43,903 nucleotides of DNA from Opitutales bacterium (GTDB lineage: Bacteria; Verrucomicrobiota; Verrucomicrobiia; Opitutales; Oceanipulchritudinaceae). The DNA lies in assembly GCA_020831525.1 (NCBI GenBank), contig JAFIGH010000037.1:1-43903 (forward strand), read 5' to 3'. Position numbers and translations under genes: made by a program. Position 1 is the stretch's first letter. Each line of letters opens with the position of its first letter. The notes beneath the pieces were generated by a model. The model searched no databases. It saw only the letters and a list, made by a program, of their open reading frames with translations, and was not told the DNA's origin. Positions 3,501-8,862 of the stretch are shown in pieces.

Positions 3501-4402
3501 TCGACCATCTCGGCGACGCGGAGGGTGTTGTCGAGCGCCTCGGGGACCTCGGCGAAGCGTTCGAGCATCTCACCGCGCGACTTGAGGTAAAACTCATGGT
3601 TGGGGTAGACCATGCGCCCGGTGTCCTTGACGATCTTGCCGGTCTGGATGCAGAGGAGAGCGTCGTGGGGTTCCCAGTCGTCCTTGTAGACGTAGTGGAC
3701 GTCGTTGGCGCAGACGACGGGCAGTCCGAATTCCTTGGCGAGCTTGAGGAGGCCGGGGATAATGCGGCGTTGCACGGGCATGCCGTGGTCCTGCAACTCG
3801 ATGAAGTAGTGGTCTTTGCCGAAGATGTCGATGAACTGCGCGGTGTATTCGCGCGCCTTGGCGTAGTTGTTGTAGATGAGGTGCTGGGCGGCGACGCCGT
3901 TGATGCAGCCGCTCAGCCCGATGATGCCCTTGCTGTGCGCGGCGAGCTTCTCGAGGTCGGTGCGCGGGCGGTAGTACATGCCGTTGACGTGGGCGTCGCT
4001 GACGAGCTTGACGAGGTTTTGGTAGCCTTCGAAATCTTTGGCGATGAGGGTTTTGTGGTGGATCTGGTGCGCCGGAAACTGGTCCGGGCCGAGGGCGTCC
4101 TCGGGGACGTCGTTGATGTCGTCGCTGCGGTTGCGGTCGCGCTTGGGGCGCTCGGCCTGGCTGTGGTCGGCGACGATGTAGATCTCGCAGCCTATGAGCG
4201 GCTTGATGCCGACTTTGGTGGCGGCGCGGTAGAAGTTGATGGCTCCGAAGAGGTTGCCGTGGTCGGTGAGGGCGAGGGCGGGCATGCCCAGCTCGGCGCA
4301 GCGCGCCATGTAGCGGTCGACACGGGCGCAGCCGTCGAGGAGCGAGTAGTCCGAGTGGCAATGCAGATGCACGAACGCGCCGGTTTCCGAGGAGTCTCCC
4401 AT
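557..4402 (-). CDS. dnaE: DNA polymerase III alpha subunit
   Basis: This is the catalytic subunit of the replicative DNA polymerase, making both strands as part of the holoenzyme. The 1281-residue product opens with a PHP domain ([15 protein letters not shown], near residue 11). Next comes the C-family polymerase core with the metal-binding aspartates in [20 protein letters not shown] (about residues 500-520). A helix-hairpin-helix segment follows around [20 protein letters not shown] (about 845-865), and an OB-fold region lies near the C terminus. The length is slightly above the usual 1160 or so. The start is supported by GGAG five bases upstream of the ATG. It stands alone on the minus strand and diverges from rpsP. 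Two very long open frames on the opposite strand are shadows caused by GC-rich codon use. Confidence 0.98.
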
Positions 4403-4501
4403 GCTCTCCGGACTATCCGCGCCGCCCGCCGCGAGGCAAGGTCATCCGCGTGCAATTTCGGCGGGCCGCAGAGAGCGCGCAGAAATCGGTCGAGCGAGAG
4501 C

Positions 4502-4530
4502 TTGACTTCGGAGGTGCGGGGGGGTTCTCT
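4502..4530 (+). promoter_or_regulatory. Candidate sigma-70 promoter for rpsP operon
   Basis: TTGACT at 4502-4507 is followed after 17 bases by TTCTCT at 4525-4530, about 40 bases before the rpsP start. The -35 is close to consensus and the -10 is poor. The placement in the dnaE/rpsP divergent gap makes it plausible, but nothing else supports it. Confidence 0.35.
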
Positions 4531-4568
4531 TGCCGGTTTTCATCATTTAGACGGCAGCTTAAGAGACA

Positions 4569-4877
4569 ATGGCTTTGAAGATTCGATTGCAGCGCGGGGG
4601 GGCGACCCACAACCCGCATTACCGTATGGTGGTGGCGGATTCCCGCTCCCGCCGCGACGGCCGCTTCGTGGAAGTGGTGGGCACCTACGCGCCCAAGGAC
4701 AAGAAAGAGGACAAGCAGATCGTGCTTAAGCTCGACCGCATCGAACACTGGCTGGGCGTGGGCGCACAGCCTTCGGACACGGCCCGTTCGCTCATCAAGC
4801 GCGCGCGCCGCCGGGCTGCCAAGGAAGGCGCCGAGGCTCCCGCAGCGGAGACTGCGGGGGCAACCGCCGCCGAGTAA
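4569..4877 (+). CDS. rpsP: 30S ribosomal protein S16
   Basis: S16 binds 16S rRNA early in assembly of the 30S subunit. The 102-residue protein has the family signature [20 protein letters not shown] at the N terminus, then [19 protein letters not shown]. The conserved core ends near residue 82 and is followed by an Ala/Glu-rich tail ([15 protein letters not shown]) longer than in the shortest homologues. It is the first gene of a rightward operon with trmD and rplS. The rimM gene that usually follows rpsP is absent. Confidence 0.98.
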
Positions 4878-4935
4878 GGCCGCGCCTTACCGCTTTATCT
4901 GTCGGCGCGCCGGTCCGCAGCGGGCCGCTTTGGAC

Positions 4936-4948: not shown

Positions 4949-5647
4949 GTGCGTGTCGATATTCTGACGTTGTTTCCGGAGATGCTCTCGGGTTTTTTGA
5001 CCGAGAGCATGGTGGGCCGCGCTTCGGCCAACGGACTCGTCGACATCCGCACGCACAATCTGCGCGACTGGGCGGGCAACCGTTGGCGGATCACGGACGA
5101 CCGGCCTTTCGGGGGCGGAGCGGGGATGGTCCTGAAGCCGGAACCCCTCGCCGCGGCGATTGACGTGTTGCGCGGAGACGACGGCACGGTGGTCTACATG
5201 ACGCCCGACGGCGAGCCGCTGACCTCGGCGATGGCCCGTGAACTGGCGGAACTGCCGCACCTTGTTCTGCTGAGCGGGCACTACGAGGGGATCGACGAGC
5301 GCATCCGCGAGACGCGGGTGGACCGCGAGGTGAGCATCGGCGACTACATCCTGACCAACGGCACGCTGCCGGCGGCGGTTCTTGTCGATTGTGTGGCCCG
5401 CTACGTGCCCGGTGTGCTCGGCGAAGAAAAGTCCTTGACGCAAGACAGCTTCAATCACAGCTTGCTCGGTTTTCCACAATACACCCGACCGGTGGAGTTC
5501 GAGGGGAAGCGCGTCCCCGACATCCTGCTTTCGGGCAATCACGGGGAGATCGAGCGCTGGCGCAAGGAACGCCGGATCGAGCGGACCCGTGAACGCAGAC
5601 CAGACCTTTACAACCAATTCTCATCACGCCATGAACCCGATCATTAA
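4949..5647 (+). CDS. trmD: tRNA (guanine37-N1)-methyltransferase
   Basis: TrmD is a SPOUT-class enzyme that uses S-adenosylmethionine to make m1G37 next to the anticodon, preventing +1 frameshifts. The 232-residue product shows the family landmarks: N-terminal [17 protein letters not shown], then [17 protein letters not shown], the knot-region cofactor loop [13 protein letters not shown], and [13 protein letters not shown]. The C-terminal domain carries [13 protein letters not shown]. The start is GTG with a GGAGG site. Its 3' end overlaps the start of rplS by 17 bases, so the two are probably translationally coupled. Confidence 0.98.
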
Positions 5648-5999
5648 CGAATTGTCCGAAGAGCAACTACTGGATGGCCGCGACCGCTTCAAGGTCGGCG
5701 ACGGCGTCCGTGTCCACACGCGCGTGCGCGAGGGTAACAAGGAGCGCATCCAGGTGTTTGCCGGCATTGTCATCGCCCGCAAGGGTCATGGTATCCACGA
5801 GACCTTCACCGTGCGCCGCATCAGTTTCGGCGAGGGGGTCGAGCGCGTGTTTCCCGTGCACAGCCCCAATATCGAGAAGATTGAGGTCGACCGTGAGTCG
5901 GTGACGATGCGCGCGCGCATGTATTACCTGCGCGACCGTGTGGGCAAGGCGGCCAACAAGGTGAAGGAAAAGCGCATCTTCGAGGCGCAGCACCGCTGA
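5631..5999 (+). CDS. rplS: 50S ribosomal protein L19
   Basis: L19 sits at the interface of the 50S and 30S subunits. The 122-residue product beginning [16 protein letters not shown] matches the usual family start and ends [19 protein letters not shown]-like ([20 protein letters not shown]). The diagnostic middle reads [20 protein letters not shown] and [21 protein letters not shown] prefer the ATG at 5631. An in-frame GTG at 5589 would add 14 residues with no family resemblance. It is the last gene of the rpsP-trmD-rplS operon. Confidence 0.96.
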
Positions 6000-6003
6000 G
6001 AAG

Positions 6004-6020
6004 GTCCGTCGTCGACGGAC
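6004..6020 (+). terminator. Hairpin after rplS
   Basis: GTCCGTCG and CGACGGAC form a perfect eight-base inverted repeat around one base, beginning five bases after the rplS stop codon. The sequence after it has only a weak T content (GGCGGCTATTCATT). It may end the operon, but it is not a textbook intrinsic terminator. Confidence 0.45.
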
Positions 6021-6126
6021 GGCGGCTATTCATTGCAGCAGCAAACAGAGCCGGGCGGTAATCGCTGGTTGTTTAAGCCCGGGGCCTGAGCTTTGATGGT
6101 TCTCCGGCTTCCGCGTGGAAGCGAGG

Positions 6127-6909
6127 TCAGGCATTGTCCGCTGTTTCCGGAGCTTTCGCCGGGCCATCCTCAGTGGCGTCGGTCAGATGGCTGAGCTGGG
6201 CTTCGAGTTCCTGCAAATCCTGCGCACGGTTGAAGAGCACGTTCTCGCTCTGTTCGATGAAGGCTTCACGCTCGGCAAGCATCTTTTCACGCTCTTCAAT
6301 CTCCCGCAAACGTGCGGCAATTTCGTCCGCCGAAGCTTCCGCGGTGTTTTTCGCGCCTTCTTCGGCTTCTGCCTTTTCGAAGGCCCTCTCACGCTCGCGA
6401 AGCTCCTCTTCGCGCCGGGCCAGCTTTTCCCCCATGCGGCGAAGTTCGCGCTCGCGGGACTCAAGTTTTTCGCGAAGATTCTCGTAGCGCCGCAGTGCGG
6501 AGTTGCTGCCGTCCTCGGGGCTGTCGCTCTCGCCGTCGGAGAGGAGACTTTCCCGCATGGCAACATTGTTCTCGCGGATATCAAGGAGCATTTCACGCTC
6601 GGAGCATTCGCGCTCGCGCTCGTTGAGTCCGATTTCGCGTTCACGGAGCGCGCGGCCTTCTTCCTGCGTTCGCTTTTCGGCTTCGAGGAGGGCGCGCTCA
6701 CGCTCGATCACGTCGGACTCGCGGCGGCGCAGGGCTTTGTCGACGCGGGGTCGCGCACGGGCAAGGATGGCATCCACGGAGGGCACTGCCGGGTCACCGC
6801 CGTCCGCCTTCTCCGTGCCTTCGACGTTGAAACCCGGCGGCGGCTGCTTGTGCGGCGGGCGGGCGAGCCGGAGGGAGTTGCGAAGACTCAGTTTCGGTGG
6901 CGCGGGCAT
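6127..6909 (-). CDS. Charged coiled-coil protein, third gene of ParA operon
   Basis: This 260-residue protein is not a family I recognise. After a Pro-rich N terminus (residues 1-45, including HKQPPPGFNVEG) it becomes almost entirely an Arg/Glu-rich helix from about residue 50 to 235. RERE-type runs such as RRRESDVIERERALLEAEKR and REEELRERERAFEKAEAEE suggest a long coiled coil or single charged helix. One break occurs around DGESDSPEDGSN (about residue 125). There is no signal peptide and no membrane segment, so it is probably cytoplasmic. It lies 47 bases downstream of the preceding gene on the same strand, and I infer cotranscription with the ParA gene. A scaffold or partner role is possible but not shown. 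Confidence 0.75.
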   Translation of the reverse strand: MPAPPKLSLRNSLRLARPPHKQPPPGFNVEGTEKADGGDPAVPSVDAILARARPRVDKALRRRESDVIERERALLEAEKRTQEEGRALREREIGLNERERECSEREMLLDIRENNVAMRESLLSDGESDSPEDGSNSALRRYENLREKLESRERELRRMGEKLARREEELRERERAFEKAEAEEGAKNTAEASADEIAARLREIEEREKMLAEREAFIEQSENVLFNRAQDLQELEAQLSHLTDATEDGPAKAPETADNA

Positions 6910-6956
6910 GGATCGGCAGGTTGCGGACAGGGTCTTTCCGGATGGCGATGCGGGAG

Positions 6957-7919
6957 TTAACGACCGAAGATCCGGGCGAAGAATCCGCGCGTTTTCGTCT
7001 GGGAACTTTCTCCTCCTTCATCGAGGGAGAGCCGGGCAAGCGCGGCGGCGACTTTTTCCTTGTTTGGGTTGTCGAGGGGCACGAAAAACCGCTCCACCGC
7101 GGATCCGCCTTCGGCGAGGGCGTCGCGAAGTCTGTCGGTTTGCTCGCCGAACCAGTCGAAGAGGATCTTCAGCTCCGCGAGCAGGCGCTCCTTCGCCGCT
7201 TCCATTTCTCTGTCGCTCAGAATCCGCACGCCTTTGCGGTCCTCCGGCGCGGGATCACCGCCGTTGGCTTCGAGTAAGTAGAGGTATTCTTCCTTGCCGA
7301 GCCGGTCCACGGCGAGACCGAGGGCCTCGGCGAGGTGCAGTCCGGTGCGGCCGGGGCGGATCGGGAGGTAGGCCGCCATGGCCTTTTCATCCTGGTGGAC
7401 GAAGCTATTGAGAAAGGCTCGGAAATCGCCGCCGACAACGACATTCTGCGCCATGTTCTGGGAGAATTCGATGAAGTCGCCGATTGTGTTGATTCCCTCG
7501 GATTCGCAGAGATCCCGGGTTTCGCGCGCGACGTTGCACAGCGTGATGGGATAGTCGGGCGGGATTTCCAGCGTGCGCATGGCTTTGGCCGCGCTTTCGT
7601 CGTGCTTGGAAGAGGAGTCGACATGCTCGGCCATTTCACCGAACGGGTCGTCGAAGGCCATGGTCTCAATGAAAATATCGGCAAGGAGCCGGGCGCGTTC
7701 GGGCTTTTCAGCGATGCCCGGAGTCATCAAAAGCTCGTCATAGGTAAGGGGCAGGTACTTGAGCGGGATTTCGTCTTTGGCGCGAATGGGCCAGTTTAGA
7801 TCGATGTTCTGCGCGAGCTTGGAGATCTCGGTCTTCACCATCATGGAATGGCGGAAGCGCTCGCGGATGCTGTCCCATTCTGCGGCGGTCAATTGTCCTT
7901 TTGGTGCGGTTTCTTCCAT
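6957..7919 (-). CDS. Helical protein of unknown function, ParA partner candidate
   Basis: The 320-residue product starts at MEETAPKGQLTAAEWDS, chosen because GAGGAG lies nine bases upstream. Two upstream in-frame ATGs would overlap parA and lack such a site. I recognise no known domain. The sequence is mainly helical and soluble, with no signal peptide. It has a central part with FIEFSQNMAQNVVVGGDF and a helical C-terminal part (EMEAAKERLLAELKILFDWF). It ends in a basic aromatic tail, KTRGFFARIFGR, that could be an amphipathic membrane- or partner-binding helix. It sits 22 bases after the parA stop codon, so it is very likely in the same transcript and possibly a partner of that ATPase. Confidence 0.8.
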   Translation of the reverse strand: MEETAPKGQLTAAEWDSIRERFRHSMMVKTEISKLAQNIDLNWPIRAKDEIPLKYLPLTYDELLMTPGIAEKPERARLLADIFIETMAFDDPFGEMAEHVDSSSKHDESAAKAMRTLEIPPDYPITLCNVARETRDLCESEGINTIGDFIEFSQNMAQNVVVGGDFRAFLNSFVHQDEKAMAAYLPIRPGRTGLHLAEALGLAVDRLGKEEYLYLLEANGGDPAPEDRKGVRILSDREMEAAKERLLAELKILFDWFGEQTDRLRDALAEGGSAVERFFVPLDNPNKEKVAAALARLSLDEGGESSQTKTRGFFARIFGR

Positions 7920-7928
7920 TGTCGTGAT

Positions 7929-7934
7929 CTCCTC
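7929..7934 (-). promoter_or_regulatory. Ribosome binding site deciding the start of the ParA partner gene
   Basis: GAGGAG on the minus strand lies nine bases before the ATG at 7919. It is one of the better Shine-Dalgarno sequences in the window and favours this start over ATG codons at 7967 and 8012. Confidence 0.75.
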
Positions 7935-7941
7935 GATTTCT

Positions 7942-8862
7942 TCAGTTGGCGGCGGGTTCGTCCCCATGGCGCAGGATTTGTTTGGTGAGGTTCTTGTAGT
8001 CCATGAGCACACCGTCGGTTCCGGGCGTGTGGGCCACCCGGTTGACAGGGAGCCCGAGGGTCACGGCACGGCGCACCACGACGGCGTCGCGGATGGACGA
8101 CGCGAAAATTTTGGCGTTGGGATCGACCTTCTTCTGGTTGCGGAACTGATTGAGGCGAAATTGCATACGCATCTTCGGCACCTCGATGTCGACGTTCGGC
8201 TTGATGGCGTTGAAGATAATCCCGGTGATGCGCGCGGCCTTGCCCATTCCGCTCTTGCGGAAGCTCGCGGACCGTTCGTTGAACTGGAGCAGCTTGCCGG
8301 TGAGAAGGGTGAATCCAATAAGGCTCAGTGCGTCAGGATTGGAGGGAACATACACCTCGTTGGAGCAGAACAGACCGCATTGCGCCGCCTTCATCACGTT
8401 GGGCGGGCAATCGAACATCACAAAATCGTAATCGTTCTCGATCTCCGCCAGCTGCTCCTGGAACTGCGCATAGACGGGGCGCCCGTCGGCCGGCTTGAAC
8501 TCGTGCTCGATATCGATGAGGTTGAAGGTCGTCGGCAGCAGGTCCAGCCCCGGCAGCACTTTCTCTCCGGCGCGGTCGATGACGACGTCCTTCACGATCG
8601 TGTCCCGAAGACGCTCGCGGGCTGGGTCGAAGGTCGCGTATATCGATCCCTGCCCGGTGATGTTCAGGTTGTTCCAGCGCTCAAGCCGCATCAGCCAGAT
8701 ACTTGTGTTCGACTGCGCGTCGAGATCCACCAGCAGCACCCGGTGGCCGGATTCAGCAAGGCAGGCGGCAATGTTCACGATGCACGAGGTTTTCCCGACC
8801 CCGCCTTTATAGTTGAGTAATGATATTCGTCGCGGCATGTTTGTGGCAATGGTGGTGAACAT
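7942..8862 (-). CDS. Orphan ParA-family ATPase
   Basis: This is a deviant-Walker ATPase of the ParA/Soj class. Such proteins bind DNA or membrane in the ATP form and position plasmids, chromosomes or protein cargo. Visible motifs are Walker A NYKGGVGKTS, Walker A' LLVDLDAQSNTS and Walker B FVMFDCPPNV. The C-terminal ParA pattern IFASSIRDAVVVRRAVTLGLPV is also present. The start is uncertain. ATG 8862 (MFTTIATNMPRRISL) gives 306 residues and has GACGGA upstream. ATG 8838 would begin just before the P-loop strand, and GTG 8913 would add 17 residues. No parB follows; the next two genes are unknown helical proteins. That context suggests a positioning role other than chromosome segregation, which is inference. 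Confidence 0.93.
   Translation of the reverse strand: MFTTIATNMPRRISLLNYKGGVGKTSCIVNIAACLAESGHRVLLVDLDAQSNTSIWLMRLERWNNLNITGQGSIYATFDPARERLRDTIVKDVVIDRAGEKVLPGLDLLPTTFNLIDIEHEFKPADGRPVYAQFQEQLAEIENDYDFVMFDCPPNVMKAAQCGLFCSNEVYVPSNPDALSLIGFTLLTGKLLQFNERSASFRKSGMGKAARITGIIFNAIKPNVDIEVPKMRMQFRLNQFRNQKKVDPNAKIFASSIRDAVVVRRAVTLGLPVNRVAHTPGTDGVLMDYKNLTKQILRHGDEPAAN

Follow-up and report, generated by a model that had tools for sequence, protein, structure and literature searches.

What does a ParA-type ATPase do where no ParB is encoded beside it? This question is raised by a locus in an Opitutales bacterium (GenBank assembly GCA_020831525.1, contig JAFIGH010000037.1); the whole contig of 43,903 nucleotides was analysed and is referred to as the window, being contig C76 of a genome of 5.3 Mb in 184 contigs. 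Three co-directional open reading frames (ORFs) were called on its minus strand in the order ParA, gene 2 and gene 3, with intergenic gaps of 22 bp (ParA/gene 2) and 47 bp (gene 2/gene 3). Together they are a conserved ParA module, specific to the order Opitutales, with two previously undescribed partner proteins. From sequence comparison, the module was interpreted as an Opitutales-specific ParA-type system for intracellular positioning, in which a membrane-tethered partner and a coiled-coil activator or scaffold would serve the ATPase; a probability of about 0.55 was attached to this interpretation.

Conservation and distribution of the module

When protein 2 was used as a single query against 55 genomes of close relatives, matches were obtained in 20, its own included, and a ParA of the same clade lay immediately upstream of gene 2 at 20 of 20 loci in 19 other genomes (40–97% identity). 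The flanking genes differed between families while the pair of ParA and gene 2 stayed together. A scan of named genomes, partly the same as those in the set of 55, yielded 85 relatives; the 80 best were retained as loci, and their record titles referred to Opitutales, to Opitutia/Opitutae, to their families and genera, or to Verrucomicrobia/Verrucomicrobiia/Verrucomicrobiota. In 77 of the 80, gene 2 was preceded by ParA (57–97% identity, a broken copy in L102 excepted), some copies being truncated at the end of a contig or interrupted in frame; another locus, L089, starts at gene 2. Linkage of this extent exceeds chance.

Gene order, the conservation of which had been proposed as a check in a preliminary description of the locus, was therefore kept across several Opitutales families, with ParA identity down to about 57%. 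The same description had named loss of order outside close relatives as grounds for abandoning its idea; order was mostly retained within Opitutales, and it failed at five loci that are weighed below. Among 387 genomes sampled from the phylum, 41 had a match to the gene-2 profile and 43 a match to this ParA (E<=1e-40), 40 genomes having both; every match to either fell within the own family or order, and none to gene 2 was found outside Opitutales in this sample. A literature search turned up, among the matches listed, no description of an Opitutales module of ParA, gene 2 and gene 3.

Two further arrangements were observed. Three genomes (G263, G329 and G379) encoded a more distant ParA (46–48% identity) and had no gene-2 match. 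At the distant ParA loci (L197, L198 and L199, with ParA at 3889–4917, 5514–6443 and 5106–6050), the neighbouring gene was divergently oriented, encoded 170–234 residues with a KKATLLDSYFKDL-like end (LLDSYFK plus two residues), and was common to all three; this pair may represent a sister system that uses a different partner. Second copies of ParA and gene 2 occurred at L049, L201, L203 and L205, where protein 2 lacked the basic-aromatic tail described below, and where ParA was preceded by a kinase-like gene and a small protein of the MQRKFKVTT type. The kinase-like gene of L203, the one tested, matched Pkinase (E = 8.8e-29).

The ATPase and chromosome partition

The ATPase gene occupies 7942..8838 on the minus strand and encodes 298 residues from its conserved start, MPRRISLLNYKGG. 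The start had earlier been placed at 8862, and this was corrected: in-frame starts exist further upstream at 8862 and 8913, and the alignment of the clade shows that relatives keep the ATG at 8838. The initial recognition of a ParA/Soj-type ATPase with all Walker motifs was borne out, since Walker A (KGGVGKTS), A' (LLVDLD) and B (VMFDCPP) are all present and Pfam AAA_31 was matched over its cut-off (E = 2e-35). A 69-row alignment, from which nine sequences not fitting the start pattern were excluded, was prepared, and residue invariance was analysed in 42 rows; K11, G12, G13, G15, K16, T17, D38, D40 and D143 were invariant throughout. The AlphaFold2 model (predicted local distance difference test, pLDDT, 91.3) has a Soj-like fold, and the best Foldseek match was Soj (1wcv, E = 1.4e-16), with McdA also among the structural matches. 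PHROG 164, 'ParA-like partition protein', was matched as well (E = 1.5e-40), and was the only PHROGs name obtained for the three proteins. With signature lysine, Walker A'/B and fold all in place, the protein belongs to the ParA/MinD P-loop ATPases. The basic-aromatic tail was absent from 25 inspected ParA C-termini of the 69 aligned; the membrane-targeting sequence (MTS) that MinD-type ATPases bear themselves was thus not seen on this ATPase. A link to defence was considered and rejected: the PADLOC matches to PDC-M28B (E = 1.2e-8) are short, spanning residues 7–51, and were not read in this way because they cover the Walker A region only.

Nucleoid binding by ParA is likely, because in other ParA proteins, according to the available part of PMC7229837, DNA is bound by positively charged residues close to the interface of the dimer. 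A candidate contact for DNA or a partner is the basic stretch PKMRMQFRLNQFRNQKK (8128..8178, minus strand), which is largely invariant in the clade. P221, K222, R224, Q226, N230 and Q231 within it did not vary in the 42 sequences, and residues 219–234 form a helix in the model, where the window has the basic and nearly invariant sequence KMRMQFRLNQF.

Such an ATPase might be a second chromosome-partition ParA that uses an unlinked ParB, with proteins 2 and 3 regulating origin segregation and tethering ParA/ParB to the membrane. The genome does encode a single protein with a ParB domain (ParB_N), situated on contig C171 and not in the window, and the nearest solved folds of the window's ATPase are Soj proteins. 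Yet a Soj-like ATPase with RTNL and RLGEAPS segments is already encoded on contig C110, and the orphan ParA shares just 25% identity with it across 190 residues. The soj (C110) and parB (C171) genes (L052, L054) are on separate contigs and are not neighbours, which fits with partition by unlinked genes; since both lie outside the window, the window's ParA is an extra one. The statement in the preliminary description that the window holds neither a ParB gene nor a parS-like 16-mer also stood: by its 16-mer consensus, parS was not found in the window at up to 3 mismatches, nor in the whole genome at up to 1 mismatch, where other parS variants are possible, so that the linked parB and parS of a ParABS system were not found at this locus. 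A partition role was considered distinctly unlikely.

Protein 2 and its C-terminal tail

Gene 2 (6957..7919, minus strand) encodes a 320-residue, all-helical protein, the candidate membrane-tethered partner of ParA. Its start at ATG 7919 is kept in relatives, corresponding to the invariant M16 of P0002 in the alignment, and nine bases before it is GAGGAG (7929..7934, minus strand), judging by sequence the likely ribosome-binding site. Both partners had initially been placed outside known families, and neither did match a Pfam or NCBIfam family over the cut-off. Protein 2 had no PHROGs or PADLOC match at E<=0.01, and its profile matched PDB sequences at E>=0.5 only. The AlphaFold2 model, built from 75 sequences, is all-helical (mean pLDDT 88.5) with an ordered body, and confidence is low (50–57) for the last 20 residues. 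Foldseek returned no PDB match at E<=0.001, which does not establish a new fold. In a second structural comparison the best match was that of residues 116–174 to the C-terminal domain of RNA polymerase alpha (3k4g; VIA-align Z 4.1, rmsd, i.e., root-mean-square deviation, 3.3, 58 residues aligned), but the likeness is weak, and kinship with that domain was not supported by a comparison of profiles (hhalign probability 2.1). An origin of the module from plasmids or phages was rejected, as plasmid and phage records gave no protein 2 match at E<=1e-3.

Protein 2 comprises a helical body, a linker that varies in length and a conserved basic-aromatic tail such as KKRGFFARLFGR; in the window the tail is TKTRGFFARIFGR (6960..6998, minus strand), which is similar to the MTS of MinD (EEEKKGFLKRLFGG in E. 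coli). The description of a helical second protein ending in a basic aromatic tail was thus upheld. Of 77 complete gene-2 proteins, 60 had a tail pattern consisting of a basic residue, G/S, a hydrophobic pair, 1–5 residues and a second hydrophobic pair. Among 659 other ORFs the pattern occurred in 6, and three of these were gene 2 itself (L043, L044 and L202); as this pattern, like the N-terminal motifs of gene 3 described below, was defined after the sequences had been viewed, and the sequences are related, such counts overstate the independent support. The tails are basic on acidic proteins, with a mean net charge of +4.0 over the last 14 residues and -10.6 over the whole protein. The window's tail has no Trp; some relatives have one, and most have Phe or Leu. 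From the resemblance to MinD, we infer that protein 2 may bind membrane.

One of the six background ORFs with the tail pattern, some 5 kb away from the ParA unit at L040 (12267–13310, minus strand), encodes a 347-residue protein (FGKHPGWDDH...) that had no Pfam match and ends in KGFLKKLFGG, nearly a MinD tail.

Protein 3 as a candidate activator

Gene 3 (6127..6909, minus strand) encodes 260 residues with a Pro-rich and basic N-terminus followed by an acidic, RERE-rich coiled coil, and is a candidate activator or scaffold. Pfam and NCBIfam gave only weak matches below the cut-off, to models of coiled-coil type; in PHROGs and PADLOC the sole match was JetC, also of coiled-coil type (E = 0.0068). 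Of the 80 loci, L102 was excluded because it has no usable start, and 76 of the remaining 79 end in a stop. Three of these 76 were discounted as contig ends; no ORF was found in five others, and the ORF of a further three differed in composition, so that gene 2 was followed by an ORF of gene-3 composition in 65 of the 73 testable loci. BLAST with the window's protein 3 recovered a relative in 37 of the 80, as is expected of a fast-changing coiled coil.

The segment before the coiled coil was net positive in 63 of 66 gene-3 proteins, while the remainder was net negative in all 66, the window's included. Often Pro-rich, this N-terminal segment contains motifs of which LSLRRR, LVLPRR and KKRVLSLRP are examples. 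A strict motif of the LxLRRR type was found in 38 of the 66 N-termini, compared with a mean of 0.1 in shuffled sequences and 1 of 711 background N-termini. Two looser forms were found in 51 and 50 of the 66 (25 and 53 of 711 in the background), and it is these forms only that the window's KLSLRNSLR (6868..6894, minus strand) satisfies; this N-terminal basic motif is a candidate ATPase-activating peptide. Excerpts of PMC13170346 and PMC10241942 describe activators of ParA-type ATPases as acting through a short peptide at the N-terminus that contains positive residues. PomX, according to the portion of PMC7993993 available, combines an N-terminal peptide of 22 residues, in which Lys13 and Arg15 are essential, with a region rich in Ala and Pro and a coiled coil.

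It had been suggested that the two partners would be activator and scaffold. The features of gene 3 do fit an activator or scaffold, but those of gene 2 fit a membrane anchor instead; in the refined assignment, gene 3 is a candidate PomX-like activator and gene 2 a candidate membrane tether.

A proposed positioning system of the PomXYZ type

Most likely, by analogy, the function of the module is positioning of the PomXYZ type. Under this interpretation, an ATP-bound ParA dimer would bind the nucleoid, and protein 2, as its dedicated partner, would be tethered by the MinD-like tail either to the inner membrane or to a cargo associated with the membrane. Protein 3 would self-assemble via its coiled coil and stimulate the ATPase of ParA through the LxLRRR-type basic motif at its N-terminus, like PomX acting on PomZ. 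Jointly, the three proteins would give a cargo or site at the membrane a defined position with respect to the nucleoid.

PomX/PomY/PomZ of Myxococcus xanthus likewise consist of a ParA-type ATPase and two partners, as far as the excerpts of PMC7993993 and PMC13170346 go, and PomX and protein 3 are alike in layout: a basic N-terminal peptide, an Ala/Pro-rich or Pro-rich region and a coiled coil. From the Pom system the module departs in that protein 2 combines a compact helical domain and a MinD-like tail, and in that gene 3 is missing from some Opitutales lineages. With MinD/MinE/MinC the module shares the basic-aromatic C-terminal tail, which is close to that of MinD but is carried here by the partner and not by the ATPase. 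Soj/Spo0J (ParABS) shares the ParA fold and the catalytic motifs, and Soj proteins gave the best structural matches, whereas here there is no adjacent ParB or parS and the C-terminal region has a clade-specific basic helix and VRRA. Noc of Bacillus subtilis links DNA to the membrane (PMC4331003, in the part available); Noc binds specific DNA sites itself, while in the proposed mechanism DNA would be reached through ParA.

Several observations weigh against this mechanism. Gene 2 occurs without an adjacent ParA at L107, L112, L202, L207 and L208; no ParA was found within 9–10 kb around gene 2 in L202 (genome G212), L207 (G300) and L208 (G409), and in G212 a distance of 0.56 Mb separates the canonical gene 2 (L202) from a ParA that has no gene 2 beside it (L204). 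A tighter, MinD-like tail pattern was present in only 12 of the 77 gene-2 proteins, with 3 of 659 ORFs in the background, two of them gene 2. The hydrophobic moment of the tails was not above that of their own shuffles (mean percentile 0.64, 5% above 0.9; for internal 14-mers, mean percentile 0.67, 18% above 0.9). Amphipathic order of the tails is therefore not supported, and it is for this reason that membrane binding is argued from the likeness to MinD. No gene-3 ORF was found in 8 of the 73 testable loci (L080, L092, L093, L094, L097, L104, L107 and L112), and in L101 and L105 gene 3 is a short form without the basic N-terminus; protein 3 therefore cannot be the sole activator everywhere. 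Lastly, the arginine of the RLGEAPS segment in the genome's own Soj is not kept at the aligned position of ParA. The ParA clade instead has VRRAVTLGLP and the basic helix close by, and for these reasons DNA binding by ParA is inferred.

The module could also be a selector of the division site, PomXYZ- or Min-like, that places or restricts the Z-ring in bacteria having FtsZ but lacking MinC, while protein 2 bridges nucleoid and membrane. The C-terminal domain of MinC (PF03775) was detected in none of the 55 genomes, the own genome included, whereas the same search was positive in 6 of 14 control genomes; a division role is therefore possible. An FtsZ-family protein is encoded by the own genome, and both the tail of protein 2 and the PomX-like layout of gene 3 would suit this role. 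On the other hand, 35 of the 55 relatives had no gene-2 match in the single-sequence search, some of them being smaller and less complete, yet they too must divide; and the 25 largest clusters of neighbouring ORFs, judged by eye, contained no division gene. The available part of PMC5147048, on division in this superphylum, held no statement on Min proteins. As the specific function, division-site selection appeared unlikely. A further proposal, of a new class with the ATPase on the nucleoid and a MinD-like anchor on its partner, the two thereby coupling nucleoid to membrane and taking over division-site or cell-cycle positioning in Min-less Opitutales, was considered unlikely and is advanced tentatively.

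Candidate cargo and neighbouring genes

McdA/McdB, which positions carboxysomes, resembles the module in having a ParA-type ATPase without linked ParB and a poorly conserved partner, and the module might position a bacterial microcompartment (BMC) in the same manner, the linker and terminal helix of gene 2 binding the shell. Among the 55 close relatives, BMC shell genes were present in 18 of 18 genomes with a canonical gene 2 (E<1e-40) and in 11 of 37 others; chemoreceptors, examined in the same genomes, showed no association (8 of 18 module genomes and 17 of 37 others) and were themselves rejected as cargo. Across the 387 genomes, however, BMC genes (PF00936) were found in 25 of the 41 module carriers and in none of the remaining 16, and the carriers without them include four single-contig assemblies that are 98–100% complete (G138, G168, G183 and G311). 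The association seen in close relatives thus fails phylum-wide, and an obligate BMC cargo, or BMC as the only cargo, was rejected. Inspection by eye showed no BMC gene among the 25 largest neighbour clusters, and the window's tail lacks the invariant C-terminal Trp that the accessible text of PMC11321042 describes for McdB. BMC positioning of the McdAB kind was regarded as very unlikely.

The recurrent neighbours of the module are specific to particular clades, and were for this reason rejected as a clue to cargo. In one subclade, a fast-evolving ORF resembling a secreted barrel (a guess from its sequence) is situated downstream of gene 3 in the same orientation; it was observed in 36 loci (e.g., L083, L085 and L099), and a gene that by its sequence we guess to be ispH-like lies downstream as well. 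The barrel-like ORF, together with the Ser/Thr-kinase-like gene and small conserved protein that precede ParA in the four paralogous loci, would agree with a ParA-like switch in envelope biogenesis or secretion (e.g., outer-membrane assembly) rather than positioning. Such neighbours are confined to certain clades, though, and other genes flank the module elsewhere, which makes this alternative an improbable one.

Other neighbours were noted in passing. A small protein of the MRKFKVST type recurs beside the module in other clades, and a conserved protein of about 240 residues (MRKFKVSTEIVTYIWADS...) is encoded near ParA in L042 (4771–5505), L044, L051, L069, L082 and L084; its relative in L203 had no Pfam match. 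The window's module is flanked by what we take to be rplS- and trmD-like genes, and other loci by presumed recR- and ybaB-like genes, judging by their sequences. A scan for promoters and terminators gave sites without a clear excess over shuffled sequence.

Significance

A dedicated ParA clade with two partner families, distributed across one order, provides defined proteins for testing. What is new in the arrangement is that the partner, and not the ATPase, bears the MinD-like tail; for a nucleoid ParA, a partner tethered to the membrane would, if true, be unusual. For the biology of the group, the finding of MinC in none of 55 genomes raises the question of how these bacteria place their division site.

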